DNA from: Devosia sp.
Lineage (GTDB): Bacteria > Pseudomonadota > Alphaproteobacteria > Rhizobiales > Devosiaceae
Assembly (NCBI RefSeq): GCF_028290625.1
Contig: NZ_JAQGJM010000038.1
Coordinates: 186,001-250,000, forward strand
Direction of reading: 5' to 3'
DNA: 64,000 bases
Numbering within the stretch: position 1 is the first letter of the stretch; each line of letters starts with the position of its first letter. Under the pieces are notes generated by a model, which ran no database searches, had not been told where the DNA came from, and worked only from the letters and a program-made list of their open reading frames with translations. Shown here piece by piece: positions 47,898-64,000 of the stretch. The translations under genes and the position numbers were made by a program.

Positions 47898-49088
47898 ATG
47901 AATGCAATAGCGAACGCGAAGCCCTATTTCCCGGGCTGGCAGCTCCTGCAGATACCCGGGCCATCCAATGTGCCGGCAAAAGTGCTGGCGGCCATGGCGC
48001 AGCCGACGATCGACCATCGCGGCGAGGCTTTTGCGGCTTTTGCCAAGACGCTGCTTGACGATCTCAAGCCGATTTTCGGCACAAAAGACGATATCGTCAT
48101 CTTCCCCTCCTCGGGGACCGGCGCCTGGGAGGCCGCCCTCGTCAATGTGACCTCGCCGGGCGATACCGTGCTGATGGCCGAGACCGGCCATTTCGCCACG
48201 CTATGGTTCAAACTCGCCAGGCAGCTCGGCCTCAACGCCGAACTGCTGCCGGGCGACTGGCGCAAGGCTGCCGATCCCCAGGCGATCGGCGCGCGGCTGC
48301 GGGAGGACAAGGTCCACACCATCAAAGCCGTCTGCGTCGTGCACAACGAAACCTCGACCGGGGCGACGAGCGACATCGCCGCCGTGCGCGCCGCCATCGA
48401 TGCCGCCGGACACCCGGCTTTGCTTCTGGTGGACACAATCAGTTCGCTCGGCTCGGTCGACTACCACCAGGACGACTGGGGCGTGGACGTCACCATCGCC
48501 GGGTCGCAGAAGGGCCTGATGTTGCCACCCGGCCTGGGCTTCAACGCCTATCGCGCCAAGGCCAAAGCGGCGGCCGAAACCGCGCGCATGCCACGGTCCT
48601 ATTTCGATTGGGAGGCGATGCGCGCGGCGCCGCTGACCGGGCAGTTCCCCTATACGCCGGCCACCAACCTGCTGTTCGCCCTGCGCGCCGCGCTGGATCT
48701 ACTGGCGCAGGAAGGCATGGACAACGTGTTCCACCGCCACGCCCGCCATGCTCGCGCTACGCGCGCCGCGGTCGAGGCCTGGGGCCTCGAAGTGCTCTGC
48801 GTCGAGCCCGAGCATCAATCCAATGTGCTGACCGCAGTGGTGATGCCAGAAGGCGTCAGCGCCGATGGCTTCCGGGCGCTGATGGTCAACCGGTTCAACA
48901 TGTCGCTGGGCAACGGTCTCTCCAAACTCAAGGACCGCGTGTTTCGCATCGGCCACCTCGGCGACTTCAACGACATGATGCTGATCGCCACGCTCGGCGG
49001 CGTACAGATGGGCCTGATCGCCTATGGGGTCAAACCGCAGACGAGCGGCGTCGAAGCGGCCATGGCGGTGCTGGCCGAGGCACTGTAG
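47898..49088 (+). CDS. Class V aminotransferase (serine/alanine-glyoxylate type)
   Basis: 396 residues from the ATG at 47898, seven bases after GGAGAG. The N-terminal LLQIPGPSNVPAKVLAAM, the cofactor-binding SSGTGAWEAAL and the pyridoxal phosphate lysine Lys205 in AGSQKGLMLPPGL are typical of serine-glyoxylate and alanine-glyoxylate aminotransferases. These convert glyoxylate to glycine. The neighbours (GntR, crotonase, CoA transferase) suggest a degradative route that yields an amino or keto acid; the exact substrate is open. It converges on the crotonase gene with no gap. Confidence 0.88.
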   Translation: MNAIANAKPYFPGWQLLQIPGPSNVPAKVLAAMAQPTIDHRGEAFAAFAKTLLDDLKPIFGTKDDIVIFPSSGTGAWEAALVNVTSPGDTVLMAETGHFATLWFKLARQLGLNAELLPGDWRKAADPQAIGARLREDKVHTIKAVCVVHNETSTGATSDIAAVRAAIDAAGHPALLLVDTISSLGSVDYHQDDWGVDVTIAGSQKGLMLPPGLGFNAYRAKAKAAAETARMPRSYFDWEAMRAAPLTGQFPYTPATNLLFALRAALDLLAQEGMDNVFHRHARHARATRAAVEAWGLEVLCVEPEHQSNVLTAVVMPEGVSADGFRALMVNRFNMSLGNGLSKLKDRVFRIGHLGDFNDMMLIATLGGVQMGLIAYGVKPQTSGVEAAMAVLAEAL

Positions 49089-49856
49089 TCAGCGTCCGGT
49101 CCAAACCGGTGCGCGCTTGTCGATGAAAGCGCGCACGCCCTCCTTGAAGTCGGCACTGCCATAAACCCGACGGATCATGTCGGTATCGTCACCACCACGG
49201 GCTGCGAGGCGGATCGCTTCGCGAGCGGCAGCGATCGATAGCGGGGCATTGGCGACGAGAGCGGTCAGAAGTTCGGCGGCGCGAAAGTCGATGACGTCGG
49301 GTTCGACCACCTCGAGCGCGAAACCGGTGGTGACGGCCTGTACGGGCTGCAGAATTTGGGCCAGCAACAGCATGGCCCGCACTGCCCCAAGGCCAAAACT
49401 GTCAACCAAGCGGGCAACATTGCGCGCCGACAGGCAATTGCCGACGGTGCGGGCAATGGGCACGCCGAAGCGCGCGCGGGTGGACACCAGCCGCAGGTCG
49501 CAGGCCGCGGCGATCACCAGGCCTCCGCCCATGGCGGCGCCGTCGATGATGGCCACGGTGGGCACCGGCAGGGCCTCAATCTGGGCGATGCCGGCCTCGA
49601 TGCGCTGCTCGTAGGCAAGGCCATCCTCGGCGCCGGCGAAATCGAGAAATTCCCGAATATCGGTGCCGGCTACGAAGGCCTTGCCCTTGCCCCGGAATGC
49701 GACGGCGCGCAGGCTCGGCGTTGCGGCGATTTTGGTGCAAGCCTCCGCCAGTTGCGCGTACATCGCAAAAGTCATGGCGTTGTAGGCTTCGGGATGATCG
49801 AACAGCACCGTCGCCACGGCGCCCTCGATCGAGAGCGTGACCCGGCCCTCGCTCAT
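49089..49856 (-). CDS. Enoyl-CoA hydratase/isomerase family (crotonase) protein
   Basis: 255 residues. GKGKAFVAGTDIREF is the first oxyanion-hole region and DGAAMGGGLVIAAACDLRL the second, so the crotonase CoA-binding fold is intact. The usual catalytic glutamate in the FGxPE motif of hydratases is absent: the sequence reads FGVPIARTVGNCLS. It may therefore not be a standard hydratase. Its ATG overlaps the CoA-transferase stop by four bases, so it likely acts on the CoA thioester made by that enzyme. Confidence 0.88.
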   Translation of the reverse strand: MSEGRVTLSIEGAVATVLFDHPEAYNAMTFAMYAQLAEACTKIAATPSLRAVAFRGKGKAFVAGTDIREFLDFAGAEDGLAYEQRIEAGIAQIEALPVPTVAIIDGAAMGGGLVIAAACDLRLVSTRARFGVPIARTVGNCLSARNVARLVDSFGLGAVRAMLLLAQILQPVQAVTTGFALEVVEPDVIDFRAAELLTALVANAPLSIAAAREAIRLAARGGDDTDMIRRVYGSADFKEGVRAFIDKRAPVWTGR

Positions 49857-51076
49857 TTGGCTTGTCCAGAGGCCATCGCCGCCCGTTCCGGGGCGATGCC
49901 CAGCTCCGCGAAAATCTCCGCATTGTGCTCGCCCAAGCGGGGTGGATGGCGCCGGACCTGCTGCGGCGTGCCGCCCAACTTGACCGGGAAGCCGATATTG
50001 CGCACGCGGCCTTCCACCGGATGATCGATTTCCATCACCGCGTGGCGCGCTTCCACGTGCGGATTATTGAGCGCTTCGCTGTAATCGTTGATCGGGCCAG
50101 CCGGAATGCCAACGGCAAGCAGGCGCTCGACCCATTCGTCCTTGCCTGCCTGGGCGAAGGTGGATTCGAGATCGGCGATCAGCGCCTCGCGATTGGCCAG
50201 GCGATCGGCATTGGTCTTGTAGTGGGGATTATTGGGCAGGTCGGGCCGGGCGATCGCCTCGCAGAGCCGCAGCCACAGCCGGTCATTGTTGGCGCCGAAG
50301 ACGAAGTAGCCGTCGGCACAGCGTACCGCCTGATAGGGCGCGGCCATGCGATTGCCGGTGCCGATACGCTGGGGGATGCGGCCTGTGCCCCAGAATTCGG
50401 AAATGTCCCAGATGGCGAAGGCCAGCCCGGCCTCGAAGAGCGAGGCATCGATATGCTGCCCCTGCCCGCTGGCCTGGCGGCCGATATAGGCCGAGAGGAT
50501 GGCGTAGACCGCGAACAGCGAGCAGCCGATATCGGTGACCGGCACGCCGGACTTGGCCGGAGGGCCACCGGGATGGCCGGTGATGCTCATCACCCCCGCC
50601 GCCGCCTGGGCGATCAGATCGAACCCCGGACGGTCGGCCCAGGGCCCTGTCTGGCCGAAGCCGGAAATGCTGGCATAGATGATCCTGGGATTGATCGCCT
50701 TGATGGTGGGATAGTCGATGCCCAGCTTCTTCATCACGCCGGGGCGGTAGTTCTCGACGATGACGTCGGCGGCCTCGGCGAGCTTGTAGAACACCTCGCG
50801 GCCCTCGGGCCTCTTCAGGTCTAGCGTGATCGAACGCTTATTGCGGTTCATGTTGAGGAACCCCAGGCTGTCGTCGCCCTTGAGCTTGAACCCCATGGCG
50901 CGTCGCGTCTGGTCGCCCCCCTCGGGCGGCTCGACCTTGATGACGTCGGCGCCCAGATCGCCCAGCAGCATGCAGCAGAACGGGCCCGCCATCACCTGGC
51001 TGACATCGAGCACCCGCATGCCGGCAAGCGGCAGAGGCAAAGCGGACGCAGTCGCATCGGTGTCCGAGGCAATCAT
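49853..51076 (-). CDS. CaiB/BaiF family III CoA transferase
   Basis: 407 residues. The catalytic aspartate is Asp153 in DRPGFDLIAQA; GADVIKVEPPEGGDQTR and NYRPGVMKKLGIDY are family landmarks. Such enzymes move CoA between carboxylic acids. The gene is followed by, and overlaps, the crotonase gene. A perfect inverted repeat (51091-51116) sits 15 bases upstream of its start, and a GntR regulator gene precedes it. The acid activated is unknown; small dicarboxylic acids are plausible. Confidence 0.92.
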   Translation of the reverse strand: MIASDTDATASALPLPLAGMRVLDVSQVMAGPFCCMLLGDLGADVIKVEPPEGGDQTRRAMGFKLKGDDSLGFLNMNRNKRSITLDLKRPEGREVFYKLAEAADVIVENYRPGVMKKLGIDYPTIKAINPRIIYASISGFGQTGPWADRPGFDLIAQAAAGVMSITGHPGGPPAKSGVPVTDIGCSLFAVYAILSAYIGRQASGQGQHIDASLFEAGLAFAIWDISEFWGTGRIPQRIGTGNRMAAPYQAVRCADGYFVFGANNDRLWLRLCEAIARPDLPNNPHYKTNADRLANREALIADLESTFAQAGKDEWVERLLAVGIPAGPINDYSEALNNPHVEARHAVMEIDHPVEGRVRNIGFPVKLGGTPQQVRRHPPRLGEHNAEIFAELGIAPERAAMASGQAK

Positions 51077-51175: not shown

Positions 51176-51844
51176 CTAGGCCTGCTGGCGTACCAGGGTA
51201 TCGCGGGCGACGTCGGAGGCCGTGCCCAAGAGATGGGTTCGCAGGAGCGCCGCCAATTGCGCGCCATCGCGCCGTTCGATGGCGTCGAGGATGGAACGGT
51301 GGTCGTCGACGGCTCGGCTCCATTGCTCCGCCGACTTGCGGGTGACGAAGCGCACTGCATGGATGCGCACCAGGATTTGCTCATACATCGTGGTCAGGGC
51401 ACCATTGGCGGCCACGGCGAACAGATACTGATGGATTTCCCGATTGAGCCGCAGATAGTCTTTCTCATTGCCCGCAGCGTGGCAGGCAAACATCTCTTCA
51501 TGCAGCTTGCGGAACTTGGCGATATCCTTGTCGGTCAGCCGCGCGGTCGCGAGTTCACCAGCCAGCGCCTCCAGCGCTGCCATGATCGGGAACAATTCGT
51601 CGATCTCAGCCTGGGTGATTTGCGCCACATAGGCACCGCGGCGCGGCAGAAGCTGGATCAGTCCCTCGGAGGCCAGCACCTTGAGGGCTTCGCGCAATGG
51701 CGTCCGCGAAATGCCGAAGCGCTCGCACAGTTCGGGTTCGCGTACCTTGCTGCCGGGCGCCAGATCGCCGGCGACGATCATGTCGCGCAGCGCATCGCTC
51801 ACATTGTGGTGCAATGCCCCCTGTTGCAGCAGCGTCGATGCCAA
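51176..51844 (-). CDS. GntR-family regulator, FCD type (second of two)
   Basis: 222 residues from a TTG at 51844 that has a good GGAGAA ribosome binding site; an ATG at 51898 has none. The winged helix (about residues 10-75, PELCERFGISRTPLREALKVLASEGLIQLLPRRGAYV) is followed by an FCD domain with the histidines of the metal site (KLHEEMFACH, LNREIHQYLF, VDDHRSIL). It is divergent from the ring-opening amidohydrolase operon and upstream of the CoA-transferase unit on its own strand, so it could control both. It resembles the GntR at 47028 in the recognition helix (ERFGISRTPLREA). Confidence 0.9.
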   Translation of the reverse strand: MASTLLQQGALHHNVSDALRDMIVAGDLAPGSKVREPELCERFGISRTPLREALKVLASEGLIQLLPRRGAYVAQITQAEIDELFPIMAALEALAGELATARLTDKDIAKFRKLHEEMFACHAAGNEKDYLRLNREIHQYLFAVAANGALTTMYEQILVRIHAVRFVTRKSAEQWSRAVDDHRSILDAIERRDGAQLAALLRTHLLGTASDVARDTLVRQQA

Positions 51845-52018: not shown

Positions 52019-52040
52019 AGACCTCTGTCCCCTAAGGTCT
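52019..52040. promoter_or_regulatory. Candidate operator upstream of the ring-opening amidohydrolase
   Basis: AGACCT (52019-52024) and AGGTCT (52035-52040) are perfect inverted repeats with a 10-base spacer, ending 24 bases before the TTG start. The spacer length equals that of the repeat at 51091-51116, but the arms differ, so another regulator or a diverged site is possible. Confidence 0.45.
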
Positions 52041-52064
52041 AATGACATTGCTTTGGAGGCTTCT

Positions 52065-53159
52065 TTGCGCGCAGACGTAGTGCGGTTCGCCCTGCCCGAT
52101 CCCGGCGATGTGTCCGGCCTCCGCCAAGCCATCGACAGCGGGCAGATCGATCCCAAGACCATCGTGGCCGTGATCGGCAAGACCCACGGCAATGGCCTCG
52201 TGAACGATTATACGCGCGGCTATCTCACCCTGTCGTTGGCCCTGCTGATCGCCGAGAAAACTGGCGATACACCCGAGGCCGTGCGCGCTCGCGTCCCCTT
52301 CGTATTCTCCGGCGGCGTCGAAGGCGTGCTGTCGCCGCACTATAGCGTCTTCACCGCCGTTCCGGACGAAACGGCGCCCACTGGCGGCAAGTCGCTGGCC
52401 ATCGGCGTCGCCTTCACCCCCGATTTCCGGCCCCACGATATTGGCCGTCAGCGCCAGATCGACCTCACGGCCGCCGCTGTCGAACAAGCCATGGCCGCGG
52501 CGAAAGTCGACCGCGCCGACGTGCATTTCGTGCAAACCAAGGGACCGGCGTTCACTCTGGCCGAGATCATCGCCGATCGGGATGCGGGCACGCCGCCCGT
52601 CACCGACAATCCCGGCAAACTGATGGGCTATGGCCGTGCGGGTTCGGCCCTCGGCGTGGCCAAGGCACTCGGCGAGTCGGCAGGGCTTGAAAGCGCCCTG
52701 CTCAATGATTTCAGTCAGTTCTCCTCCGTCGCCAGTTGCTCGGCCGGCGTCGAAGTGCGCGGCAACGAGGTGATCGTCATCGGCATGAGTTCGGCCTGGT
52801 CCGGTCCGCTCGCCATCGCGCATGCCGCCATGAATGATGCGCTCGACACAGCCGGCATTTATCGCGCGCTCGCCGACCTCGGACTCCCCGCCAACCCGCA
52901 AGTCAGTGCGGCGGATGCGAAACGCCTGCGTGCCGGTTTCGTCAAATGCGAGGCTTCGCGCGACGGCAAGATCCGCGGCCGCGGCCACACCATGCTCAAT
53001 GACGGCGATATCGACCCGCAGCGCCACATCCGCGCCGCCGTCGGCGCCATCGTCGCCAGCGTGGTCAACGACACGGCTCTCTTCGTGTCCGGCGGCGCCG
53101 AACACCAGGGCCCCGATGGTGGCGGCATGATCGCCCTGATCGCCGAACGCAACGCCTGA
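52065..53159 (+). CDS. Ring-opening amidohydrolase of the barbiturase/cyanuric acid amidohydrolase family
   Basis: 364 residues from a TTG with a GGAGG ribosome binding site five bases away. The length and the threefold architecture match this family. Each repeat supplies a Lys-Ser pair: K39 (VIGKTHGNG) with S82 (FVFSGGVEG), K159 (VQTKGP) with S226 (SVASCSAGVE), and K294 (FVKCEAS) with S342 (FVSGGAEHQGPDGGG). Known members open barbituric or cyanuric acid rings. No triazine gene is nearby and an FAD monooxygenase follows, so a barbiturate-like pyrimidine is more likely than cyanurate, but the sequence does not settle it. First gene of a five-gene operon. Confidence 0.9.
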   Translation: MRADVVRFALPDPGDVSGLRQAIDSGQIDPKTIVAVIGKTHGNGLVNDYTRGYLTLSLALLIAEKTGDTPEAVRARVPFVFSGGVEGVLSPHYSVFTAVPDETAPTGGKSLAIGVAFTPDFRPHDIGRQRQIDLTAAAVEQAMAAAKVDRADVHFVQTKGPAFTLAEIIADRDAGTPPVTDNPGKLMGYGRAGSALGVAKALGESAGLESALLNDFSQFSSVASCSAGVEVRGNEVIVIGMSSAWSGPLAIAHAAMNDALDTAGIYRALADLGLPANPQVSAADAKRLRAGFVKCEASRDGKIRGRGHTMLNDGDIDPQRHIRAAVGAIVASVVNDTALFVSGGAEHQGPDGGGMIALIAERNA

Positions 53160-53181
53160 TCGGCCAATAGAGACAGTTGAG

Positions 53182-54387
53182 ATGACCACCGGAACCAAGC
53201 CGAAAATTGTCGTGGTGGGGGCCGGGATCGCCGGCAGCCTTGCCGTCTCTGGCCTCGCCGAGCGTAGCGATATCGAGCTGATCTGCCTGGAACGCGCGGC
53301 TGAAACGGGCCAGATCGATGCCGGGACTGGTCTGAATATCGGCCCCAACGCCATCAAGGCGCTGGCGGCGATCATGCCCGAACGGGCGCGAACGCTGATC
53401 GACAACTCGCTGCCGTGGAAGCAGTGGACGGTGGAGCTGACCGACGGTACTCCACTGATGAATCTCGATCTGGGGACGGTCGCGGACAATGCCGGCATCC
53501 GCATCCGCTGGGCCGAGCTCTATGCTTTGCTGCGCCGGCCCATTGCCCGCCATATCCGCTTCGGCACCGAACTCACCAGCATCAGCCACGGCGACGAGGG
53601 CCTGTTCGTTGACGTGCAGGACGCGTCCGGCGCCCCCGGCAAGCGCATCTGCGGTATCGACCTGATCATCGCCGCCGATGGCCGCTATTCGGTGGCGCGC
53701 CAGACCCAATGGGGCCAGGAGCCGCCGAACTTTCTCGGCGTTTGCCTCTACCGCCTGCTGGTGCCGGCCGGCATCGATTGCCCGATCGACGACTACGGCC
53801 AGTGGTTCAACGGCCCCAACCGGCTGTTGGCCTTCCGCGTGCCGGGCGATTTCGTCTACATCGCCGGCTCGTTCCCCATTCCGGCAGACAGCCCTATCCC
53901 CGAGACCGCCAAGCTGGGCCCTGCCCTGCGCGGCCTCTACACCCCGCAGAACGGCTCGCTGACCGCGCACACCAAATTCCTCGTCGACGCAGTCGAAACC
54001 TATGCGGATCGCATCCACTGGGCGCGACTTCAGGATGGCACTGTGCAATTCGCCGGGCCGCCTGGCGTGTTGCTACTCGGCGACGCCGCCCACCCCATGG
54101 TGCCGACGCTTGGCCAAGGCGCCACCCAGTCTGTCGAGGATGCTTGCGTGCTGGTGGACGAGGTACGCCGGGCGCTGGATCGCGGTGAACCGCTGGACCT
54201 GGTGCCGGCGCGCGTCGAAGCGCGACGGCGCGAGCGGGTGGAATTCGTGGTCAGCCTGTCGCGTGCCGCAACCGATACCATGCTGGAGGGCGCCGACCCC
54301 GTGGCCGGCACGCTCAAGAAAACGCAACCGGCATTCCTCAGCCAGCTCGAGCGGCTTTACCGCGATGTGCCGGAGCCGCTGGCATGA
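53182..54387 (+). CDS. FAD-dependent monooxygenase (aromatic hydroxylase type)
   Basis: 401 residues. The FAD dinucleotide motif is VVGAGIAGSL (G13, G15, G18), the DG motif is IIAADGRYSVAR, and the GD motif is LLLGDAAHPMVPTLGQGATQSVEDA, which together define group A flavoprotein monooxygenases. These hydroxylate aromatic or heteroaromatic rings with NAD(P)H and oxygen. It lies 22 bases after the ring-opening amidohydrolase gene, so it probably prepares the ring for opening. It overlaps the amidase gene by four bases. Confidence 0.9.
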   Translation: MTTGTKPKIVVVGAGIAGSLAVSGLAERSDIELICLERAAETGQIDAGTGLNIGPNAIKALAAIMPERARTLIDNSLPWKQWTVELTDGTPLMNLDLGTVADNAGIRIRWAELYALLRRPIARHIRFGTELTSISHGDEGLFVDVQDASGAPGKRICGIDLIIAADGRYSVARQTQWGQEPPNFLGVCLYRLLVPAGIDCPIDDYGQWFNGPNRLLAFRVPGDFVYIAGSFPIPADSPIPETAKLGPALRGLYTPQNGSLTAHTKFLVDAVETYADRIHWARLQDGTVQFAGPPGVLLLGDAAHPMVPTLGQGATQSVEDACVLVDEVRRALDRGEPLDLVPARVEARRRERVEFVVSLSRAATDTMLEGADPVAGTLKKTQPAFLSQLERLYRDVPEPLA

Positions 54388-55787
54388 GCAACCTGGCCGA
54401 CCTCGCCGACCTGACGGCAGGCGAACTGGTCGCCGGTTATGGCACGGGCACCTTCACCCCGGTCGAGGCGCTAGCGGCAGTTCATGCCCGCATCGCTGCC
54501 GTCAATGCCGATATCAATGCGGTGATTGCCGAAGATCGCGCCGCCGCGCTCCAGGCTGCACGATCTTCGGCCGAACGTTGGGCCAGCCACAACTCACTGT
54601 CAGCACTTGATGGCGTCCCCCTAACCATCAAGGACAATCTGCATGCGGCCGGGCTGCCCGCCACCTGGGGCAGTCGGCTTTACCACGATTTCGTCCCGCA
54701 GGCAGATGAGCCGCCGGTCGAGCGCCTGCGCAAGGCCGGTGCCATCATCATCGGCAAAACCAACGTCCCTGAATTCACCCTGCAGGGTTACACCGACAAT
54801 CAGCTATTCGGCGTCACGCAGAACCCGCTGGCTCCGGGCATGACCCCCGGCGGCTCCACCGGTGGCGGCGCCGCAGCGGTCGCGGCCGGCATTGGCCCCC
54901 TTGCGCTGGGCACCGATGGTGGTGGTTCGCTACGCCGACCTGCCGCGCATTGTGGCCTCTTCGCCATCAAGCCGTCGATCGGCCAAGTGGCGCGTGCTGG
55001 CGGCTTTGCGCAGATCCTCGCCGATTTCGAAGTCGTCGGCCCAATCGCCAGAACGCCCACGGACCTGCGCACCGCATTCGACGTACTCTCCGGCTTCGAC
55101 CAGCGCGATCAGCGATCTTTTGCCACCCTCGCCGCCGACGAGCCGTTCTCACAGGCGCCGCGCATCGGCTATTTCAACGCGCTCGGCAGTGCGCCGGTCG
55201 ATCCGCGCATTACTCGCGCCTCGGACAATTTCGCCACCGCGCTCGCCGCCGCCGGCGGCCGCATCGCAGATATTCCCGCCCCGTTCGATCTCGACCGCGT
55301 CAACGGGGCTTGGGGCACCGTGGCCGCCACTGGCCTTGCTTGGCATCTGTCCCAATACCCCCAGGCCGAGGCGCTGATCGGCGACAATGCCCGCGCCACA
55401 GCCGAACGCGGCCGCGCCCTCTCCGCCATCGATTACCTCCACGCCTGGGACGCTTGCATGCAGATCCGCGTCGAAGCGGCTCGCTTGTTCGACACCTTCG
55501 ATCTGCTGCTCTGCCCCACCACGGCGGCCCTCGCCTGGCCGGCCGCCGAGCCATTCCCGCCACTCATCGACGGCCGCCCGGCCGGGCCGCGCGGGCATGC
55601 GATCTTCACCGCCTGGATGAATGTCGCCGGGCTTTGCGCGCTGTCCATCCCCGTTGCCACCACGCCCGATGCGGGCGGTATCGGCATGCAGCTGGTGGCG
55701 GCGCCGGGGCGCGACCGCGCCCTTCTCCATTTTCTCGCAACCCTTCCGGCAGCGGCAATGGCGCCGCGCCGAACCATCCAAGGATAG
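54384..55787 (+). CDS. Amidase signature family hydrolase
   Basis: 467 residues. The Ser-cisSer-Lys triad is visible as Lys83 (VPLTIKDN), Ser158 (PGGSTGGG) and Ser182 (TDGGGSLRRPA). Relatives include ureidomalonase and the biuret-type enzyme AtzE, which work after ring opening by the upstream enzyme family, so hydrolysis of a ureido acid is a fair inference. No AtzG-like small subunit is seen. Translation is coupled to the monooxygenase gene by a four-base overlap. Confidence 0.88.
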   Translation: MSNLADLADLTAGELVAGYGTGTFTPVEALAAVHARIAAVNADINAVIAEDRAAALQAARSSAERWASHNSLSALDGVPLTIKDNLHAAGLPATWGSRLYHDFVPQADEPPVERLRKAGAIIIGKTNVPEFTLQGYTDNQLFGVTQNPLAPGMTPGGSTGGGAAAVAAGIGPLALGTDGGGSLRRPAAHCGLFAIKPSIGQVARAGGFAQILADFEVVGPIARTPTDLRTAFDVLSGFDQRDQRSFATLAADEPFSQAPRIGYFNALGSAPVDPRITRASDNFATALAAAGGRIADIPAPFDLDRVNGAWGTVAATGLAWHLSQYPQAEALIGDNARATAERGRALSAIDYLHAWDACMQIRVEAARLFDTFDLLLCPTTAALAWPAAEPFPPLIDGRPAGPRGHAIFTAWMNVAGLCALSIPVATTPDAGGIGMQLVAAPGRDRALLHFLATLPAAAMAPRRTIQG

Positions 55788-55793
55788 CCTTCC

Positions 55794-56537
55794 ATGAGCG
55801 AATTCACCGGCAAGACGGTCATCGTAACGGGCGCGGGCGACGGCATCGGCCGGGCCACGGCGCGTCTCTTCGCTGCGGGCGGCGCCAATGTCGTGCTCGT
55901 TGATATCAAGGGCGCCGAAGCCGCGGCAGATGAGCTGGCCGAAGCGGGCGGCAAGGCGATCGCCGTCACCATGGACGTGCGCGACGTCGCTGCCTGGACA
56001 GACCTTGTCGCCCAGACCATCACGCAGTTCGGCACCGTGGACGCGCTGGTCAATAATGCCGGCATCGCGGTGCCGAACGATACCGCCGTCAATGTCACCG
56101 AAGAGTCCTGGGACCGGGTGATGGATATCAACGCCAAGGGCGTGTGGCTGGGCATGCGCGCTGTTCTGCCGATCATGCTGGCCAAGAAGGAAGGCAAAAT
56201 CTGCAACGTAGCCTCTACCGCCGCCCACATCGGCCTGCGCAATGCCGCCGCCTATTGCGCCTCCAAGGGCGCGGTGCTGGCGCTGACGCGGCAGGCCGGC
56301 GTGCAGTATGCCTCGCAGAACATCCAGATCAATTCGGTCTCACCCGGCACCACGATGACCGGCATCCAGAAGGAAGTCACCGACGAGCAGCGCGCCGCCT
56401 TCCTGCCGCTGACGCCAATCGGCCGCTTCGCCCAGTCCGAGGAAGTCGCCCGTACCATCGTGTTCCTCTGTGGCGAGGGCTCCTCGTTCATGACCGGCGC
56501 CGATCTCAGCGTCGATGGCGGCATGGTGGCGCTGTGA
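55794..56537 (+). CDS. SDR family NAD(P)-dependent oxidoreductase
   Basis: 247 residues. TGAGDGIGRATARLF, NNAGIAVPNDT, and the catalytic YCASK are present, so it is an active classical SDR. It lies six bases after the amidase and overlaps the epimerase gene by four bases. Its substrate in the pathway is unknown; oxidation of a hydroxy acid or of a sugar freed from a nucleoside are options. Confidence 0.88.
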   Translation: MSEFTGKTVIVTGAGDGIGRATARLFAAGGANVVLVDIKGAEAAADELAEAGGKAIAVTMDVRDVAAWTDLVAQTITQFGTVDALVNNAGIAVPNDTAVNVTEESWDRVMDINAKGVWLGMRAVLPIMLAKKEGKICNVASTAAHIGLRNAAAYCASKGAVLALTRQAGVQYASQNIQINSVSPGTTMTGIQKEVTDEQRAAFLPLTPIGRFAQSEEVARTIVFLCGEGSSFMTGADLSVDGGMVAL

Positions 56538-57439
56538 AGATTCTCGTCACCGGTGGCGCTGGCCTCGTCGGCATGACGCTGCGCCAGACGCTGCAGCGCG
56601 CCGGCCACCAGGTCACGGCGATCGACGTCACTGATTTCGGCCGCGGCGACACCAGCCTCACGATCATGGGGCTGGACGATGCAGGCCCGCTCGATGCGCT
56701 CGTGACCCAGAACGGCATCGAGGCGATCATCCATTGCGGCGGCATTTCCGGGCCGATGCTGGCCGCTGGCAAGCCGATGCTGCTGGTCGATGTCAACATC
56801 ACCGCGACCGCGCGGCTGCTCGATATCGCGCGGCGGCACGGCATGAAGCGCTTCGTGTTCTGCTCGTCGGTCTCGGCCTATGGCGATGTCGGCCCCGGCA
56901 CGATCACCGAGACCACGCCGCTGCATCCAACCTCGGTCTATGGCGCCTCCAAGGTTGCCGGCGAGGCGCTAGTCGACGGCTTTGCCACCGAATACGGCCT
57001 CGACGGCATCAGCCTGCGCATTGCGCGCGTCTATGGGCCGTACCGGCGGGCCAACTGCTATCTCGGCGATATCATCCGCAACACCGAGAAGGGCCTGCCG
57101 ACCGAAATCCCCTGCGAGGACGATTTCAAATATCACTATATCCATGTCGACGATGTCGCCGATGCACTGCTGACGGTGCTCGAGGCCAAGAGCCTGCCGT
57201 CGCGTGCCTATAACGTCTCTAACCTCGAAATGACTATGCCGCAGATTGCCGAGATTGCGCGGCGGACCATTGCGGGGGCGCGGGTCAATCTGGTGGCCGG
57301 GGCCGATGACGTGCCGGATGTGCAGAGCGCCTTCGATATCACCAAGATCGACCGCGAACTCGGCTGGCGCCCGCGCCTCGATCTCGCTGCTGGCCTGCTC
57401 GCCTATCGCGACGCAATCCGCTCCGGCAACGCCGCCTGA
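56534..57439 (+). CDS. NAD-dependent epimerase/dehydratase family protein
   Basis: 301 residues from a GTG that overlaps the SDR stop (GTGA). The extended-SDR motif TGGAGLVG (residues 6-13), SSVSAYGD and YGASKVAGE are present, and YHYIHVDDVADALL matches sugar-nucleotide epimerase-type proteins. Uronate and other sugar dehydrogenases share this fold. It is the last gene of the operon, followed by a strong terminator. Confidence 0.88.
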   Translation: MKILVTGGAGLVGMTLRQTLQRAGHQVTAIDVTDFGRGDTSLTIMGLDDAGPLDALVTQNGIEAIIHCGGISGPMLAAGKPMLLVDVNITATARLLDIARRHGMKRFVFCSSVSAYGDVGPGTITETTPLHPTSVYGASKVAGEALVDGFATEYGLDGISLRIARVYGPYRRANCYLGDIIRNTEKGLPTEIPCEDDFKYHYIHVDDVADALLTVLEAKSLPSRAYNVSNLEMTMPQIAEIARRTIAGARVNLVAGADDVPDVQSAFDITKIDRELGWRPRLDLAAGLLAYRDAIRSGNAA

Positions 57440-57513: not shown

Positions 57514-58434
57514 CTAGCCGATATCGAAGCGCCAGGCGCTGTGGCGGCTGCGGGCACGCGTCGTGCGCCATCCCACTAGCACCAGCGCCAGCACCGTCAC
57601 CACATAGGGGATGAGCTGCAGCAATTGGGGGGCAAGCCCGGTCACTTGCGGCAGGCGCACGGACAGTGCTGTGGCGGTGCCGAACAGGATGGCCACCATT
57701 GCGGTCAGATACGGATTGCCGCGGGCGAAGAAGATGGCCGCCAGCGCGATCAGGCCGCGCTCATTGGTCATCTTGTTGGCGAAGAGCGAAACATAGGCGA
57801 GCGACAGGTAAGCGCCGGCAAAACCGCAGAACAGTCCGGACAGCAGCATGGCCTGGAACTTGACCCAGTCCACATTGATGCCGGCTGCGGCCGCCGCTTC
57901 GGGCGCTTCGCCGACGACCCGCAGCTGCAGGCCCCATTTGGTCTGGTACAGCGTCCAGGCGACGATCGGTACGAAAACATAGGCGACATAGACCAGGATG
58001 GTGTGGCCGCTGAAGATTTCGCCGATGATCGGGATGTTCTCGATAACCGGGAGATGGATGACCGGGAAGGTGGGGATGCGGTCGGAGGTGAACACCCCGT
58101 CCTGCCCCAGCACGCCCTTGAGCAGCAGCGCCGTCAGGCCATAGGCGAGAAAGGTCACGGCCGTGCCGGCGATGAAGATATGGGCGCGGAACTTGATGTT
58201 GAACATCGCCATCAGCGCGGCCAGCAGCATCGAGGCCAGGATCGCCGCCAGCAGCGCCAATTCCAGGCTGCCGGTGAAATAGGCGGTGGCGACGGCGGTG
58301 AACGCCGCCACGATCATGAAGCCATCGAGCGCGATATTGAGCATGCCGGCCTGATAGGTCAGCAGCCCCCCCATGGCGGCGAAGACCAACGGGGTCGAAA
58401 TGCGGACGGCGGAATTGAGGATTTCCAGATCCAT
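57514..58434 (-). CDS. Nucleoside-type ABC transporter permease, second subunit
   Basis: 306 residues, about nine membrane helices. LNIALDGFMIVAAFTAV near residue 32 and the coupling segment GLQLRVVGEAPEAAAAAGINV near residue 165 are typical of the branched-chain-type permeases found in BMP (basic membrane protein) nucleoside importers. It starts one base after the other permease and is last in the operon. Confidence 0.9.
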   Translation of the reverse strand: MDLEILNSAVRISTPLVFAAMGGLLTYQAGMLNIALDGFMIVAAFTAVATAYFTGSLELALLAAILASMLLAALMAMFNIKFRAHIFIAGTAVTFLAYGLTALLLKGVLGQDGVFTSDRIPTFPVIHLPVIENIPIIGEIFSGHTILVYVAYVFVPIVAWTLYQTKWGLQLRVVGEAPEAAAAAGINVDWVKFQAMLLSGLFCGFAGAYLSLAYVSLFANKMTNERGLIALAAIFFARGNPYLTAMVAILFGTATALSVRLPQVTGLAPQLLQLIPYVVTVLALVLVGWRTTRARSRHSAWRFDIG

Positions 58435-58435
58435 T

Positions 58436-59557
58436 TCAGGCCTCCGTTGGGGTGGCGTTGACGGGCTCGACGGCGTCGGGCGATTTCGGCGGTGGCTCCG
58501 GGAACAGGCGCAGGATCAGCCAATCCCAGGAGAACTGCGCCGCCAGCACCAGCACGGTAATGAACTGCAGCACCTGCACCAGGTATTTGCTCAGCCCGGT
58601 CATCATCTGCAGCACGCCGCTGCCGCCATTGAGGGCACCGAACAGGAAGGCCGCGACGATGACACCGATCGGGTTGAAGTTGGCCAGCATTGCCACCGCG
58701 ATACCATCGAAGCCATAGCCGGGGGAAAAATTGTCGTAGAAGGCGCCATACTGGCCGAGCACCTGCTCGGCACCGGCGAGGCCTGCAATACCGCCGCTCA
58801 GGATCATCACCCAGATTGCGCGGCGCGGCACATTGATCCCGCCATAATAGGCGAAGCGCGGACTGAGCCCCATGATCTTCCACTCAAAGCCGCGCACGGT
58901 GCGCACATTGATGATGGCGAAGATGATGCAGCACGCCAGCGCGATGAAGATGCCGGCATTAACCTGCGAATAGACCGAAAAGGTCGGCAGCGCCGCGCTG
59001 GGCGCAATATCGGGCAGCTTGTTGGTCGGCCCCGGCGCCTTGAAGACGTGGGTGGCGAAGAACCCGGTCAGCAACAGCGCGATCGGATTGAGCATCAGGC
59101 AGACGACGAGCTCGTTGACGCCGAGATAGACGCGCAGCAAAGCCGGGATGGCTGACCACAATCCCCCGCCGACAAAGCCGGCTAGGATCGCCAGCGGCAA
59201 GTGCAGGAACCACGGCATCGGAAAGGCATAACCAACCACGCCGGCAAACAGAGCGCCAACCAGCATCTGGCCCTCGGCGCCGATATTCCATAGCCCCGCG
59301 CGGAACGAGATGGCGACGGCCAGCCCGGTGAATAGCAGCGGCGTCATCATCTGCAGCGTCACCAGCAGGTTGGGCACGCCGACTAGGCTGCCTGAAATCA
59401 GCAGCCCATAGACCTCGATCGGATTCTCGCCCAGGGCCAACACCAGCAGGCCGCCGACGATGGTGGCGATCAACACAGCGACGATGGGCTGGACAGCTGG
59501 GCGGCAGAAATTGAGTACGGCCATACCCGGACCCGAACCTGTGGTTTCAAACGACAT
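58436..59557 (-). CDS. Nucleoside-type ABC transporter permease, first subunit
   Basis: 373 residues from the ATG at 59557, with an AAGGAGA ribosome binding site. About nine or ten helices; AISFRAGLWNIGAEGQMLVGALFAG and the coupling region WKIMGLSPRFAYYGGINVPR are characteristic of the larger permease of BMP-type nucleoside transporters. It overlaps the ATPase gene by 11 bases. The Pro-rich C-terminus is cytoplasmic. Confidence 0.9.
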   Translation of the reverse strand: MSFETTGSGPGMAVLNFCRPAVQPIVAVLIATIVGGLLVLALGENPIEVYGLLISGSLVGVPNLLVTLQMMTPLLFTGLAVAISFRAGLWNIGAEGQMLVGALFAGVVGYAFPMPWFLHLPLAILAGFVGGGLWSAIPALLRVYLGVNELVVCLMLNPIALLLTGFFATHVFKAPGPTNKLPDIAPSAALPTFSVYSQVNAGIFIALACCIIFAIINVRTVRGFEWKIMGLSPRFAYYGGINVPRRAIWVMILSGGIAGLAGAEQVLGQYGAFYDNFSPGYGFDGIAVAMLANFNPIGVIVAAFLFGALNGGSGVLQMMTGLSKYLVQVLQFITVLVLAAQFSWDWLILRLFPEPPPKSPDAVEPVNATPTEA

Positions 59558-61112
59558 GCTGGGTCTCCTTCGGGAGCGCGCCGACGCTGGCCGGCTCTTC
59601 GTCCAGGCCGCCCATATAGCGGCCCACTTCCTCGGCATCGGTATCGGCGGCCTTGAGGTTGGCGACGATGCGGCCACGATAAATGACCAAGACGCGGTCG
59701 GAGATCGACAGCACCTCGTCGAGATCGGCCGAGACCACAAACACCGCCCTGCCCGCATCGCGCATCTCCACCAGCGTGCGGTGGATCGCCTCGATGGCGC
59801 CGATATCGACGCCCTGTGACGGTTGTTCGGCAATGATCAGGCGAGCATCGCGGGTCAACTCACGAGCGATCTGCACCTTCTGCTGATTGCCACCCGAGAG
59901 CGATCCGGCGGCCTTATCGGGCGTGGCGCCACGGACGTCGAAACGGGCGATCAGTTCGGCGGCGCGCTGCTTGGCGCGGGTGGCCGCAAAGAACGGACCG
60001 GCTTTGAACTTGCCCAAATGGCCGACGGTCATGTTCTCCCAGATCGAGCTTTCGAGCGACAGTCCGAGGTCGCCACGATCGGCTGGAATATAGGCCAGTC
60101 CGGCCTCGCGATTGCCGCGCGGATTGGGCCGCAGCGGCGTGCCGCAGATCTGCACCTGCCCACCGACGGGGCGGCGCAACCCGGCAATGCACTCGACCAG
60201 TTCATCCTGGCCATTGCCCTGGACCCCGGCCAGTCCGACGATTTCGCCAGCGCTGACGCTCAGCGAAAGATTGTCTACCGCCGTCTCGCCGCGCTCACCC
60301 AGAGCCGTCAGGCCCTTGACGTCGAGCAGCAGTTCGCCGGTCGGCTTGGCCTCATTCTTGGCCACGCGCAGCAGCACTGAACGGCCCACCATCAGGCTGG
60401 CGATCTCCTGCGCAGTCACATTCTTGTTGTCGATGGTCGATAGGATACGACCCTGACGCATCACCGAAATGCGGTCGGAGACGGCCAGCACTTCGCGCAG
60501 CTTGTGCGTGATGAAAATGATCGAGTGCCCGCTATCGGCCAGCGAGCGCATGGTGGCGAACAGCTCTCGCGTTTCCTGGGGCGTCAGGACCGCGGTTGGT
60601 TCGTCGAGGATCAGGATTTCGGCCTCGCGATAGAGCGCCTTGAGGATTTCGACGCGCTGGCGCAAGCCGACCGGCAGCGTGGCGATGATCGCTCTTGGAT
60701 CGAGATTAAGCCCAAAGCGTTCGCTGATCGCCTTGGTCTCGCGCTCGGCGCGGATGCGGTCGAGCCGGCCGAAGGATTTGAGCGGTTCGGAGCCGAGAAT
60801 GATGTTCTCGGCCACAGTGAAGGACGGCGCCAGTTTGAAATGCTGGTGCACCATGCCGATACCCAGGGCGATGGCTTCCTTGGGATTGGCGAAACGAACC
60901 GGCTCGCCGCGCAGGTCGATGTCGCCATCGGTGCGGGGCAGCAAGCCGTAGAGAATGTTCATCAGGGTCGACTTGCCCGCGCCGTTCTCGCCGACCAGGG
61001 CATGTATCTCGCCGCGGCGGATATCCATGCTCGCCGAGTGGATGGCGGTGAAATTGCCGAAGCGCTTGACGATATTGCGCATGCTGACGACGGGCACTGA
61101 AGCGTCGGGCAT
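59547..61112 (-). CDS. Nucleoside-type ABC transporter ATPase (two fused domains)
   Basis: 521 residues with two ATPase domains. Domain 1 has GENGAGKST (about 41-49), the unusual signature LPVGLRQRVEILKAL and LILDEPTAVLTP. Domain 2 has a degenerate Walker A, GVQGNGQDEL, where the lysine is missing, with signature LSGGNQQKVQIAREL and LIIAEQPSQGVDIGA. This asymmetric pattern is normal for BMP-type and sugar importers, which therefore hydrolyse ATP mainly at one site. Confidence 0.93.
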   Translation of the reverse strand: MPDASVPVVSMRNIVKRFGNFTAIHSASMDIRRGEIHALVGENGAGKSTLMNILYGLLPRTDGDIDLRGEPVRFANPKEAIALGIGMVHQHFKLAPSFTVAENIILGSEPLKSFGRLDRIRAERETKAISERFGLNLDPRAIIATLPVGLRQRVEILKALYREAEILILDEPTAVLTPQETRELFATMRSLADSGHSIIFITHKLREVLAVSDRISVMRQGRILSTIDNKNVTAQEIASLMVGRSVLLRVAKNEAKPTGELLLDVKGLTALGERGETAVDNLSLSVSAGEIVGLAGVQGNGQDELVECIAGLRRPVGGQVQICGTPLRPNPRGNREAGLAYIPADRGDLGLSLESSIWENMTVGHLGKFKAGPFFAATRAKQRAAELIARFDVRGATPDKAAGSLSGGNQQKVQIARELTRDARLIIAEQPSQGVDIGAIEAIHRTLVEMRDAGRAVFVVSADLDEVLSISDRVLVIYRGRIVANLKAADTDAEEVGRYMGGLDEEPASVGALPKETQHVV

Positions 61113-61179: not shown

Positions 61180-62244
61180 TTACTGTGCCAGCGTCGTGGC
61201 AGTCGCGATCGACGGCGGCGTCGCGATCGGGGGCGTGCCCATCTCGGCCTGGCCAGCCTTGAGCTCGAAGTAGTTCGGCACCACGATCTCGCCCGACAGC
61301 AGCTTGGCCTTGAGCGTATCGACCTCGGCCAGCACGGCGTCGGAGATCAGGCCCTTGTTGTTGTCGTCCATGGCGGCGGAAACCCCGTCTTCAGCCAGAC
61401 CATACATCTTGACCTGATTGCCGGCGAAGGTGTTGTCGCTGACCGACTTGATCATATCGAAAGCCTGGGTGTCGACGCGCTTGACCATCGAGGTCAGCAC
61501 GCTACCGGGCGCCAGATAATTCTGGTTGCTGTCCACGCCGATGGCGAAGGTGCCGGTGCTCTTGGCGGCTTCGATGACGCCGACGCTGGTCGGGCCGGCA
61601 ACGGCGAAGTTGATGTCGGCGCCCTGGTTGATATTGGAGAGGGTGAATTCCTTGCCACCTGCGGGGTCGGTGAACGAGCCGGTATAGGTCTCGATCACCT
61701 TGATGTCCGGATTGGCCATCATCGCCCCGTAATAGTAGCCGATGAAGAAGCGGTGGATGATCGGGATGTCCTTGCCGCCCACGAAGCCGATGGTGCCGGT
61801 CTTGGTGGTCTTGGCAGCGATGTAGCCGACGAGAAACGAGCCTTCCCAATCCTTGGTCACCGTGCTGACGACGTTGGGGCCGAGCGGCTCGGGACCGACG
61901 TCGACGAGGCCGAACTTCTGGTCCGGGAACGCGGCGGCGACGGCTTTCATCGGCTCGATCATGTCGAAGGAAGAGCCGATGATGATATCGAAGCCCTGAC
62001 CGGCGGCGCGAGCCAGCGCGGACTGGAATTCGGAAATTGCGCGCGGCTGGATGACGACGTAGTCGGCGCCGAGCTCGGTTTTAGCGCGCTCCATGCCTTC
62101 TACCATCATGTCGTTGAACGACTTGTCACCCAGACCGGATTCGGAGGTGATCATGGCGACCTTGGGGGCGGCGAAAGCCGGAACCACCACGGTCGTCAAA
62201 AGCGAAAGCACTACCAGGCCAGTCTTCAGAAAATTTCCAGACAT
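61180..62244 (-). CDS. BMP family (PnrA-like) substrate-binding protein
   Basis: 354 residues from the ATG at 62244, seven bases after AGGAG. A signal peptide (about 1-26, cleavage AFA) directs it to the periplasm; there is no lipobox, so it is soluble. KVAMITSESGLGDKSFNDMMVEGMERAK, GSSFDMIEPMKAVAAAFPDQKFGLVD, GYIAAKTTKTGTIGFVGGKDIPIIHRFFIGYYYGA and GVDSNQNYLAPGSVLTSMVKRVD are BMP landmarks. Characterised members bind purine nucleosides and related compounds. Confidence 0.92.
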   Translation of the reverse strand: MSGNFLKTGLVVLSLLTTVVVPAFAAPKVAMITSESGLGDKSFNDMMVEGMERAKTELGADYVVIQPRAISEFQSALARAAGQGFDIIIGSSFDMIEPMKAVAAAFPDQKFGLVDVGPEPLGPNVVSTVTKDWEGSFLVGYIAAKTTKTGTIGFVGGKDIPIIHRFFIGYYYGAMMANPDIKVIETYTGSFTDPAGGKEFTLSNINQGADINFAVAGPTSVGVIEAAKSTGTFAIGVDSNQNYLAPGSVLTSMVKRVDTQAFDMIKSVSDNTFAGNQVKMYGLAEDGVSAAMDDNNKGLISDAVLAEVDTLKAKLLSGEIVVPNYFELKAGQAEMGTPPIATPPSIATATTLAQ

Positions 62245-62306
62245 CGTTTTCTCCTGTTGCGTTCCATTTCGACAGGCATCGCTCTGACGGCGATTGTCCT
62301 GTTTAT

Positions 62307-63125
62307 TCAAGCTGCTGGGGGATCTTGCACCGTCCGCGCCACAGCCATGAATTCCCTCACTTTGCTCGGGATGAAGCGGCCTACTGCGCTCCCCGAGTCT
62401 TTCATCGACGTGGACACCATGGCCCCGTCGGCCTTGCTCGCCACTTCGGCGAAATTGGATGCGGTTACCCCGCCCCCGATCAGGATCGGGATGTCGGCGT
62501 ACTTGGCGCGAGCACGCGCCACCATGTCCAAGGTCTGCGGATAGGATTTGCCGGTGAGCACCAGCCCATCGGCACCGCCGAGGCGGACGGCGAATTCGAC
62601 ATCCTCTTCGAAGCCACCAGTGGCGATCGGCGTGCCGGTACGATCATGCACGTCGGCGAAGATCGCGACCTGCCCCGCATTCCAGGAGGTCCGCGCCTTG
62701 ATGGCATTGTGGGCCTGGGCTGTTTCCATGCCGAACGGGGTCATCATCGCGCCGACATAGATCTTGATGCGCACGAAATCGGCGCCCGAGGCCGAGGCGA
62801 TGGCGAACATTGCCTCCGCATCGTTTTCCAGCAGGTTCAGGCCGGTCGGTTTGCCGAATTTATTGCGAATTTCGGCGGTGACCCGCGTCATCCACGCCAC
62901 CTGCACGGCGGTCGCCGACATGTCGACCGGGATATCGCCCAGGTTCTGCACCATCAGCACGTCGACGCCGTTCTCGGCCAGGATGCCGGCCTCCTCGAGG
63001 CCCGCCTCCAGCACCGAGGCGAAACTTTCGCCCCGGTAGTTGGCGCCGCCGGCCAAGGCCGGCAGCTGCACCATGCCCACGACCGGCTTGCGGCCGGCGC
63101 GAACGAGTGAGAGCAGCTCGCTCAT
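62307..63125 (-). CDS. BtpA/SgcQ family TIM-barrel protein
   Basis: 272 residues from the ATG at 63125, overlapping the stop of the SIS gene (TGATG); a GTG one codon earlier is possible. KPVVGMVQLPALAGG, ENGVDVLMVQNLGDIPVD, FVRIKIYVGAMMTPFG and ADGLVLTGKSYPQTLD identify the BtpA/SgcQ family, a TIM-barrel group of uncertain chemistry that often accompanies sugar or nucleoside uptake genes. The name BtpA comes from a photosystem I biogenesis factor and does not describe this protein. Confidence 0.9.
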   Translation of the reverse strand: MSELLSLVRAGRKPVVGMVQLPALAGGANYRGESFASVLEAGLEEAGILAENGVDVLMVQNLGDIPVDMSATAVQVAWMTRVTAEIRNKFGKPTGLNLLENDAEAMFAIASASGADFVRIKIYVGAMMTPFGMETAQAHNAIKARTSWNAGQVAIFADVHDRTGTPIATGGFEEDVEFAVRLGGADGLVLTGKSYPQTLDMVARARAKYADIPILIGGGVTASNFAEVASKADGAMVSTSMKDSGSAVGRFIPSKVREFMAVARTVQDPPAA

Positions 63126-64000
63126 CACACCTTCTCCGTCTGGCTGGTCTTGGCTTCCTGCGAGTTGAAGATCTGGCGAAAATTGACTTCCTGACGCTTC
63201 TTGTTGTCGAAGCCCAAGAAGGCAATCTTCTGCACGGTCGAGATTTCGCAGGACAGGTATTCGAACGGCAGCTTGTAGACGAAGGGTGTCAGCGTCTCGG
63301 GAATGCCCTTGGGCATGGGGAAGTAGATGTCGCTGGCCTTCTGCGCGACCGCGTCACCCTCTTCGCCGACGATGATGATGCGCGAGCCCATTTCACGGGC
63401 GGCTTCGGCCTGCTCGAGACCACGGTCATAACCAGCGCCCGGGGGCAGGATAATGAAAGTGTCGGTCTTTTCGCCGGTCATGAAATAGTGCTCGTGCGCC
63501 CATTCCTCGAGCTGCGACAGATGCGCCGGGCGGGTGAGGCCTTCGAACCACTTGGCCATGGCGAAATAGGCGGTCGAATAGTTCGGGCCGCCGCCCAGGA
63601 TCACGGTCGCACGGTCGGGGGTGAAGGTCGGCGCGAGCTTGCGGGCCAGAGCCAGCGTGCCGGCATCCGATGCGGCCATCGCCTTGGCGGTGGCATGCAG
63701 TTCGGCGACCAGTTTGGCCGACTGGGCAGCGTTCAGGTTGCCCAGGCGCTCGCCGATGGCAATGGCGGCGACGAACAAGCCGAGCATGCTGGCGGTATAG
63801 GTGATCGAGCCCGGGGTCACGACGCGCGTGCCGTCTGGCAGTTCCTTGATATTGGGGGTGGCGTTGACCTTGATCAGCGTCTCGGCGGTCTGGGCCAGCT
63901 TGTTATCGGCGCTGACGGTCACGGCGAAAGTCCAGGCGCCACGGTCCCGAGCCAGGCGGACACCTTCGATGGTGCGCGACACGGTGCCAGAATTGGAGAC
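63125..64000 (-). CDS. SIS-domain protein (N-terminus outside window)
   Basis: The frame is open to the end of the window, so at least 292 codons are present and the start is missing. The edge reads VSNSGTVSRTIEGVRLARDRGA, the sugar-phosphate binding S-x-S-G loop of SIS domains, and a second SIS domain follows (about residues 140-260, with LSQLEEWAHEHYFMTGEKTDTFIILPPG). Double SIS proteins isomerise or deaminate sugar phosphates or act as sensors. It is the first visible gene of the importer operon, overlapping the BtpA gene. Confidence 0.88.
   Translation of the reverse strand, partial: VSNSGTVSRTIEGVRLARDRGAWTFAVTVSADNKLAQTAETLIKVNATPNIKELPDGTRVVTPGSITYTASMLGLFVAAIAIGERLGNLNAAQSAKLVAELHATAKAMAASDAGTLALARKLAPTFTPDRATVILGGGPNYSTAYFAMAKWFEGLTRPAHLSQLEEWAHEHYFMTGEKTDTFIILPPGAGYDRGLEQAEAAREMGSRIIIVGEEGDAVAQKASDIYFPMPKGIPETLTPFVYKLPFEYLSCEISTVQKIAFLGFDNKKRQEVNFRQIFNSQEAKTSQTEKV

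Follow-up and report, generated by a model that had tools for sequence, protein, structure and literature searches.

A conserved Devosia locus pairs a Gln-321 class of AtzD/barbiturase-family amidohydrolase with an FAD monooxygenase

Which ring is opened by an amidohydrolase of the AtzD/barbiturase family when its gene lies next to that of a flavin adenine dinucleotide (FAD) monooxygenase? This question is raised by a 64,000-nucleotide stretch of a 4.96 Mb Devosia sp. genome (contig NZ_JAQGJM010000038.1, C7:186001-250000), here called the window. Five genes on the same strand form one tight operon (52065-57439, +), and the families and close or overlapping spacing that the original prediction had assigned to them were borne out by Pfam profiles and coordinates. 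We tentatively read the locus as a catabolic one for a pyrimidine-type or urate-like ring arriving joined to a sugar, and consider this reading, in which the substrate is inferred, to have somewhat less than an even chance. The operon genes are as follows.

52065..53159, +: AtzD/barbiturase-family ring-opening amidohydrolase of the Gln-321 class, 364 aa with a TTG start (PF09663, 418 bits; NF052395, 439 bits, cut-off 360)
53182..54387, +: FAD monooxygenase with a predicted HpxO-like fold (PF01494, 43 bits; model pLDDT 94.5; best Foldseek match 3rp7)
54384..55787, +: amidase-signature hydrolase that presumably splits the ureide from ring opening (PF01425, 296 bits)
55794..56537, +: short-chain dehydrogenase (SDR; PF13561 and PF00106; in the same slot of the five-gene order in 9/80 loci)
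56534..57439, +: NAD-dependent epimerase/dehydratase-type (extended SDR) enzyme with a GTG start (PF01370, 167 bits)

These genes are separated, in order, by a 22 bp gap, a 4 bp overlap, a 6 bp gap and a 4 bp overlap. A collection scan was seeded with the window monooxygenase, and the best 80 of 105 relatives were kept; these 80 loci over-represent Bradyrhizobium and are not independent. The exact five-gene order was found again in nine of the 80 named loci, so the arrangement is not a product of chance. Thirteen of the loci (L020-L028, L030, L031, L033 and L037) were grouped by us as the window type. The first gene had been predicted to start at 52019, which is out of frame; it begins instead at TTG 52065 behind a GGAGG, and the start codon lies at the same place in 10 of 12 window-type relatives (ATG in 8). 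A single transcription unit is proposed because of the tight spacing and the conserved gene order, promoter- and terminator-like sites at the locus being no commoner than in shuffled sequence.

The amidohydrolase was confirmed as a member of the Amido_AtzD_TrzD superfamily by PF09663 (417.7 bits, cut-off 25) and TIGR02714 (401 bits, cut-off 153.1). Alignment to AtzD, with which it shares 48.5% identity and a similar length, recovered all three predicted Lys-Ser pairs together with Arg-54. For this family, PMC3758960 reports two established activities as well as a tested member that showed neither, and gives five specificity positions that read R-T-R-G-G in cyanuric acid enzymes and N-H-K-V-S/A in barbiturase. 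The window protein matched neither pattern: it retained four residues of the cyanuric acid signature Arg195-Thr321-Arg325-Gly345-Gly346 with Gln in place of Thr-321, whereas the barbiturase positions Asn195-His321-Lys325-Val345 were occupied by Arg, Gln, Arg and Gly. Positions were anchored on motifs, the published AtzD numbers being one or two off relative to the deposited protein, and the residue table comprised 82 of 83 AtzD-family rows, with a partial row of 165 aa (L030) excluded.

In an 86-row tree, the window amidohydrolase fell into its own 69-row clade with a support of 100/100, and AtzD, TrzD, the Moorella enzyme and the barbiturase 5hwe were all located outside it. The first three are the only proven cyanuric acid enzymes in the tree; the forks between groups were weaker, and the very long branch of a paralog on contig C36 leaves the root unsure. 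The pattern R-Q-R-G-G occurred in 69/69 clade rows (64 distinct, five being duplicate copies of a genome fetched twice), and Arg-54 in 68/69. At position 321, the Gln of the clade thus stands against Thr in AtzD, TrzD and the Moorella enzyme and His in barbiturase, and Glu was found in 11 other rows (10 distinct, one duplicate). The Glu of the GKTEG motif was replaced by His (16 rows) or Pro (two rows) in the window subclade, and by Pro also in two rows outside it. In this clade the AtzD/barbiturase family shows a third sequence class, recognisable by Gln-321.

Could it nevertheless be an ordinary cyanuric acid hydrolase that has fallen among these neighbours by chance? Its closest relatives of known structure are enzymes of that type, and the protein passed the NCBIfam cyanuric acid hydrolase equivalog NF052395, for which the window protein and two paralogs of the genome were scored. 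The outcome that the original prediction had named as evidence against itself, a grouping with proven cyanuric acid enzymes, is in this respect half borne out. Its own clade and its residue 321 set it apart, and the host genome encodes a distinct paralog on contig C13 that carries Thr-321 and the cyanuric acid hydrolase signature. Moreover, the operon neighbours are conserved, none of the 10 neighbouring proteins scanned exceeded a biuret- or allophanate-hydrolase cut-off, and no atzE-G-H-F set was recognised beside the window amidohydrolase. Unlike AtzD and TrzD, the window subclade also has His in the GKTEG motif, and the window gene has an FAD monooxygenase partner. We therefore regard this explanation as improbable; a plain cyanuric acid or barbiturate enzyme is disfavoured by the residue signature and the tree. 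Since NF052395 names the window protein a cyanuric acid amidohydrolase despite its different residue 321, the model may over-reach, and its name covers at least one protein that lacks the full cyanuric acid signature.

A genome-neighbourhood survey linked this class to the monooxygenase. An AtzD-family gene was present in 65 of the 80 monooxygenase loci, on the same strand in 58 and directly adjoining on that strand in 39. Across 151 related genomes, 21 AtzD-family genes were found, seven of them Gln-type; all seven adjoined a monooxygenase gene, compared with none of the other 14, although one non-Gln gene (G071) lay 2.7 kb from the monooxygenase in the same cluster. The 14 include a badly aligned row of unsure class (G054), whose genome has no monooxygenase match. 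Among 385 genomes across the class, 25 AtzD-family genes were detected at an E-value of 1e-50, and the two Gln-type genes were both in monooxygenase genomes, adjoining in the window and 3.4 kb away in G352. Because the monooxygenase searches were run at cut-offs of 1e-40 and 1e-60 and scored few candidates in each genome, a missing match does not prove absence. The nearest named locus was that of Devosia sp. RYN_494, whose monooxygenase is 94% identical; in keeping with an assignment to Devosia, genomes of the same genus encode amidohydrolases identical to those on contigs bearing that name. Cultured carriers include Devosia subaequoris DSM 23447 and, for the type lacking the sugar genes, Rhizobium lusitanum.

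What the monooxygenase does to the ring was approached through its predicted structure. The best Foldseek match of the model was HpxO with FAD and uric acid (3rp7, E 1.1e-28, TM 0.79), followed by tropone and 6-hydroxynicotinate monooxygenases; many other class A flavin monooxygenases matched too. The likeness to HpxO makes C5 hydroxylation of a urate-like ring likely, but the identity is 21%, the score against the HpxO NCBIfam equivalog is 74 bits, below the cut-off of 500, and the partner genes differ. Flavin hydroperoxides are expected to attack electron-rich carbons; in rings of the barbiturate, 6-aminouracil or urate type the electron-rich position is C5, not C6.

This chemistry bears on the idea of an oxidative route through uracil and barbiturate, with uracil dehydrogenase replaced by the flavin enzyme, barbiturate converted via ureidomalonate into malonate and urea, and malonate activated by the CoA-transferase. 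The enzyme classes stand in the right order, and a CoA-transferase and a crotonase adjoin the operon. The predicted lack of uracil dehydrogenase and triazine genes holds for the genes checked beside the operon; no genome-wide search was aimed at them. The substitution of the flavin enzyme for the ring-oxidation step, as originally proposed, was not upheld: C6 of uracil is not a usual site of flavin hydroxylation, and a molybdenum-hydroxylase large-subunit match was present in 30 of the 80 monooxygenase loci (25 clear, at ≥36% identity). A following amidase would be expected for a barbiturase, and the window enzyme shares the family and catalytic residues of 5hwe, but Asn-195, His-321, Lys-325 and Val-345 are missing. 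The Rhodococcus oxidative pyrimidine pathway (see also PMC3758960) comprises uracil dehydrogenase, barbiturase and ureidomalonase; the order of ring-opening amidohydrolase and amidase is similar, whereas the window adds the flavin monooxygenase and, in the window type, the SDR, epimerase and sugar genes. We consider the uracil/barbiturate route unlikely.

A variant urate route, in which the monooxygenase would yield 5-hydroxyisourate and the amidohydrolase would replace hydroxyisourate hydrolase, could draw on the HpxO-like fold, the class V aminotransferase and the PuuE-like genes in 7/80 loci (one reached 420.8, short of the 424.6 cut-off). However, contig C3 of the genome carries a PuuD-type urate oxidase and hydroxyisourate hydrolase, together with genes that look, by eye and by similarity, like those for a PuuE-type allantoinase, a xanthine dehydrogenase and a further BMP transporter. 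The urate route was set aside for the host genome in view of this standard purine cluster, and it seems to us about as improbable as the cyanuric acid explanation.

The contexts of the relatives fell into three kinds. In Bradyrhizobium, molybdenum-hydroxylase genes, amidohydrolase, monooxygenase, a VOC-type protein and often an amidase occurred together; in Beta- and Gammaproteobacteria, amidohydrolase, amidase, monooxygenase, a VOC-type protein and an NMT1-type ATP-binding cassette (ABC) transporter were found, often with AtzH/HpxZ. The window type carried the SDR in 13/13, the epimerase in 12/13 and the aminotransferase in 10/13 loci, with VOC and AtzH in 0/13 each. Counted anywhere in the 80 loci at E 1e-12, amidase occurred in 44, VOC in 44 and AtzH/HpxZ in 12. 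The AtzH copy tested had oxalurate catabolism protein as its best NCBIfam name, and AtzH probably decarboxylates 1,3-dicarboxyurea, a product of ureide deamination, according to excerpts of PMC6219798. With AtzH/HpxZ in 12 of the 80 loci, the opened ring in relatives therefore probably contains a urea unit. Such a ureide is impossible from a pyridine and thus speaks, indirectly, against a nicotinate-like route in which a trihydroxypyridine (a cyclic imide) would be opened by the amidohydrolase and ammonia freed by the amidase. That route would suit the molybdenum hydroxylase of many loci and the fact that 6-hydroxynicotinate 3-monooxygenase is the nearest solved sequence; we judge it very unlikely.

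The VOC-type protein was assigned by eye (L063:11209-11757 and 43 other loci), and the copy tested matched no Pfam or NCBIfam model. Seven of the 80 loci (L021, L022, L024, L026, L030, L033 and L037) hold a component of an ECF-type transporter that looks YkoE-like on inspection; all seven carry window-type operon genes, and the L037 copy matched PF09819.

The conserved unit extends beyond the five genes. On one side, the genes for the CoA-transferase, crotonase and a GntR-like regulator diverge from the operon, with a BhcA-like aminotransferase farther out; from the opposite side, the genes for a BMP-type ABC transporter, BtpA and a SIS protein converge on it, and beyond the window end the SIS gene is followed by one for a PfkB-type kinase and by a GntR-like gene. 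Regulators, permeases and ATPase were assigned by eye.

47898..49088, +: class V aminotransferase, BhcA-like (PF00266; BhcA model 424 of 650 bits; 10/13 window-type loci)
49089..49856, -: enoyl-CoA hydratase/crotonase-family enzyme (PF00378; NF004796, 309 bits, cut-off 272)
49853..51076, -: class III coenzyme A (CoA)-transferase (PF02515, 460 bits; also in L020, L027, L028 and L031 at 73-94% identity)
51176..51844, -: divergent GntR-family regulator (start uncertain; open reading frame with homologs in relatives)
57514..58434, -: ABC permease 2 (from its translation; conserved place)
58436..59559, -: ABC permease 1 (from its translation)
59547..61112, -: ABC ATPase (from its translation; conserved place)
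61180..62310, -: BMP/PnrA-like solute-binding protein (PF02608, 208 bits; aligned to PnrA and BmpD)
62307..63128, -: BtpA/SgcQ-family protein with a predicted phosphate-binding TIM-barrel fold (PF03437; model pLDDT 84)
63125..64000, -: SIS-domain protein, 387 aa, continuing beyond the window (PF01380; GlmS-type models 65-68 bits, below cut-off)

Is the ring linked to a sugar? A sugar part had been suggested in the original prediction, and the distribution of BtpA, encoded beside the BMP, SIS and PfkB genes, agreed with it: at E 1e-40, window-type BtpA occurred in 6/151 genomes, exactly those with the window-type operon (Fisher 7e-11, with a further figure of 5e-10; kinship not corrected), while G071, the seventh monooxygenase genome, has another context. 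The BtpA model has a phosphosugar-type barrel and was closest to phosphate-binding barrels such as thiamin-P synthase, TrpA, TrpF and HisF. The SIS protein resembles the isomerase part of GlmS and, weakly, fructoselysine-6-phosphate deglycase, and the motifs DKSFN, F.VAG, GVD..Q and LTSMVKR of the BMP protein, a candidate nucleoside binder, align with PnrA by eye. Fructoselysine-type systems combine a kinase with a SIS deglycase. The window likewise has a PfkB-type kinase with a GlmS-like SIS protein, but the fructoselysine models reached only 26 and 28 bits, far below their cut-offs, and BtpA is added. Within the operon, the epimerase-type enzyme scored 90 bits of 325 against the D-erythronate dehydrogenase model, and the amidase reached the cut-off of none of the 25 NCBIfam models shown. 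Most of the papers listed under the names BtpA and SgcQ concern an unrelated Brucella protein.

Taken together, these parts suggest the following sequence for the sugar-linked ring, in which we infer every substrate, which step follows which, hydroxylation at C5 and the action of both gene groups on one compound. The BMP-type ABC transporter would import the sugar-linked compound, whose sugar would be phosphorylated by the PfkB kinase and then removed by the BtpA barrel together with the SIS protein. The FAD monooxygenase would next hydroxylate a barbiturate- or 6-aminouracil-type ring at C5, in the way that HpxO acts on urate, and the Gln-321 amidohydrolase would open the resulting 2,4,6-trioxo ring, resembling 5-hydroxybarbiturate (dialurate), to an acylurea that the amidase would split. 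The SDR, epimerase-type enzyme, CoA-transferase, crotonase and aminotransferase could process the carbon and sugar remnants. In solved enzymes, three arginines hold the ring carbonyls (excerpts of PMC3758960 and PMC4051656). Arg-195, Arg-325, Gly-345 and Gly-346 were conserved in 69/69 clade rows; with the carbonyl-holding arginines retained, a trioxo ring is likely, and the lack of the barbiturase Val-345 would leave room for a polar group. A 5-hydroxylated trioxo ring would thus fit the amidohydrolase, as pieced together from these parts.

A more specific version would place the sugar on an exocyclic nitrogen of a pyrimidine, e.g., a ring-opened guanosine-type or riboflavin-precursor-type compound. 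Here the kinase would phosphorylate, BtpA would act as an Amadori-type isomerase like TrpF/HisA, and the SIS protein would hydrolyse the ketosamine phosphate before C5 hydroxylation and opening by the Gln-321 enzyme, which would then represent a third specificity class of its family. This novel pathway is a speculative proposal that we consider improbable; if it holds, the Amadori-type role would be the first one assigned to the BtpA/SgcQ family. Other substrates considered on chemical grounds were riboflavin, pterin, pseudouridine and vicine/convicine, and nothing selects among them.

Several observations weigh against the sugar-linked ring pathway. The co-occurrence test covered BtpA alone among the sugar genes, and in G081 BtpA is on a different contig from the operon. 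L021, L030 and L033 have the five genes with no BMP or BtpA in the fetched flank, and therefore the sugar link may be optional; an ECF-type permease gene is nearby in all three. At the threshold used, 15/80 monooxygenase loci had no AtzD-family gene (three being contigs <6 kb), and in G277, a genome with the monooxygenase, the family is represented solely by a Thr-type enzyme encoded on another contig. Sequence profiles place the monooxygenase closer to 6-hydroxynicotinate 3-monooxygenase than to HpxO. With His for Glu in GKTEG, the window subclade may not be representative of the clade as a whole; the reasoning from AtzH is indirect, and AtzH is absent from all window-type loci; and second AtzD-family enzymes near several clusters are not accounted for.

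Among the open-access papers listed, as judged by titles, abstract openings and selected passages, none describes the pairing of an AtzD-family enzyme with an FAD monooxygenase, and no paper joined four of five module terms. The expectation of a possible new route is supported in part: a conserved gene set surrounds the AtzD/barbiturase-family enzyme, with no described pathway found among these papers, and a sugar-linked pyrimidine- or urate-like ring is our best present guess for this catabolic locus. That a clade marked by one residue is tied to the same partner enzyme in Alpha-, Beta- and Gammaproteobacteria points to a third natural substrate for the family, and this would bear on the role of AtzD/barbiturase enzymes before industrial triazines. 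The link names the amidohydrolase-monooxygenase pair to be assayed, and the BtpA family gains a testable place in sugar-linked ring breakdown.

Additional AtzD-family enzymes were encountered in the monooxygenase loci L019/L068, L021, L022, L024, L033, L035, L039, L077, L081 and L092 and in G352. They carry Glu-321 (10 distinct) or Thr-321 (G352) and mostly occur alongside a Gln-type enzyme. Besides the C13 paralog, the host genome contains one further AtzD-family gene, the C36 paralog (L006:9415-10533, -), which has Thr for one dyad Ser, Ser-195, Gly-321 and Lys-325. It recalls Group V of PMC3758960, whose single tested member had neither known activity. A gene near the C36 paralog resembles an Asp/Glu or hydantoin racemase by eye.

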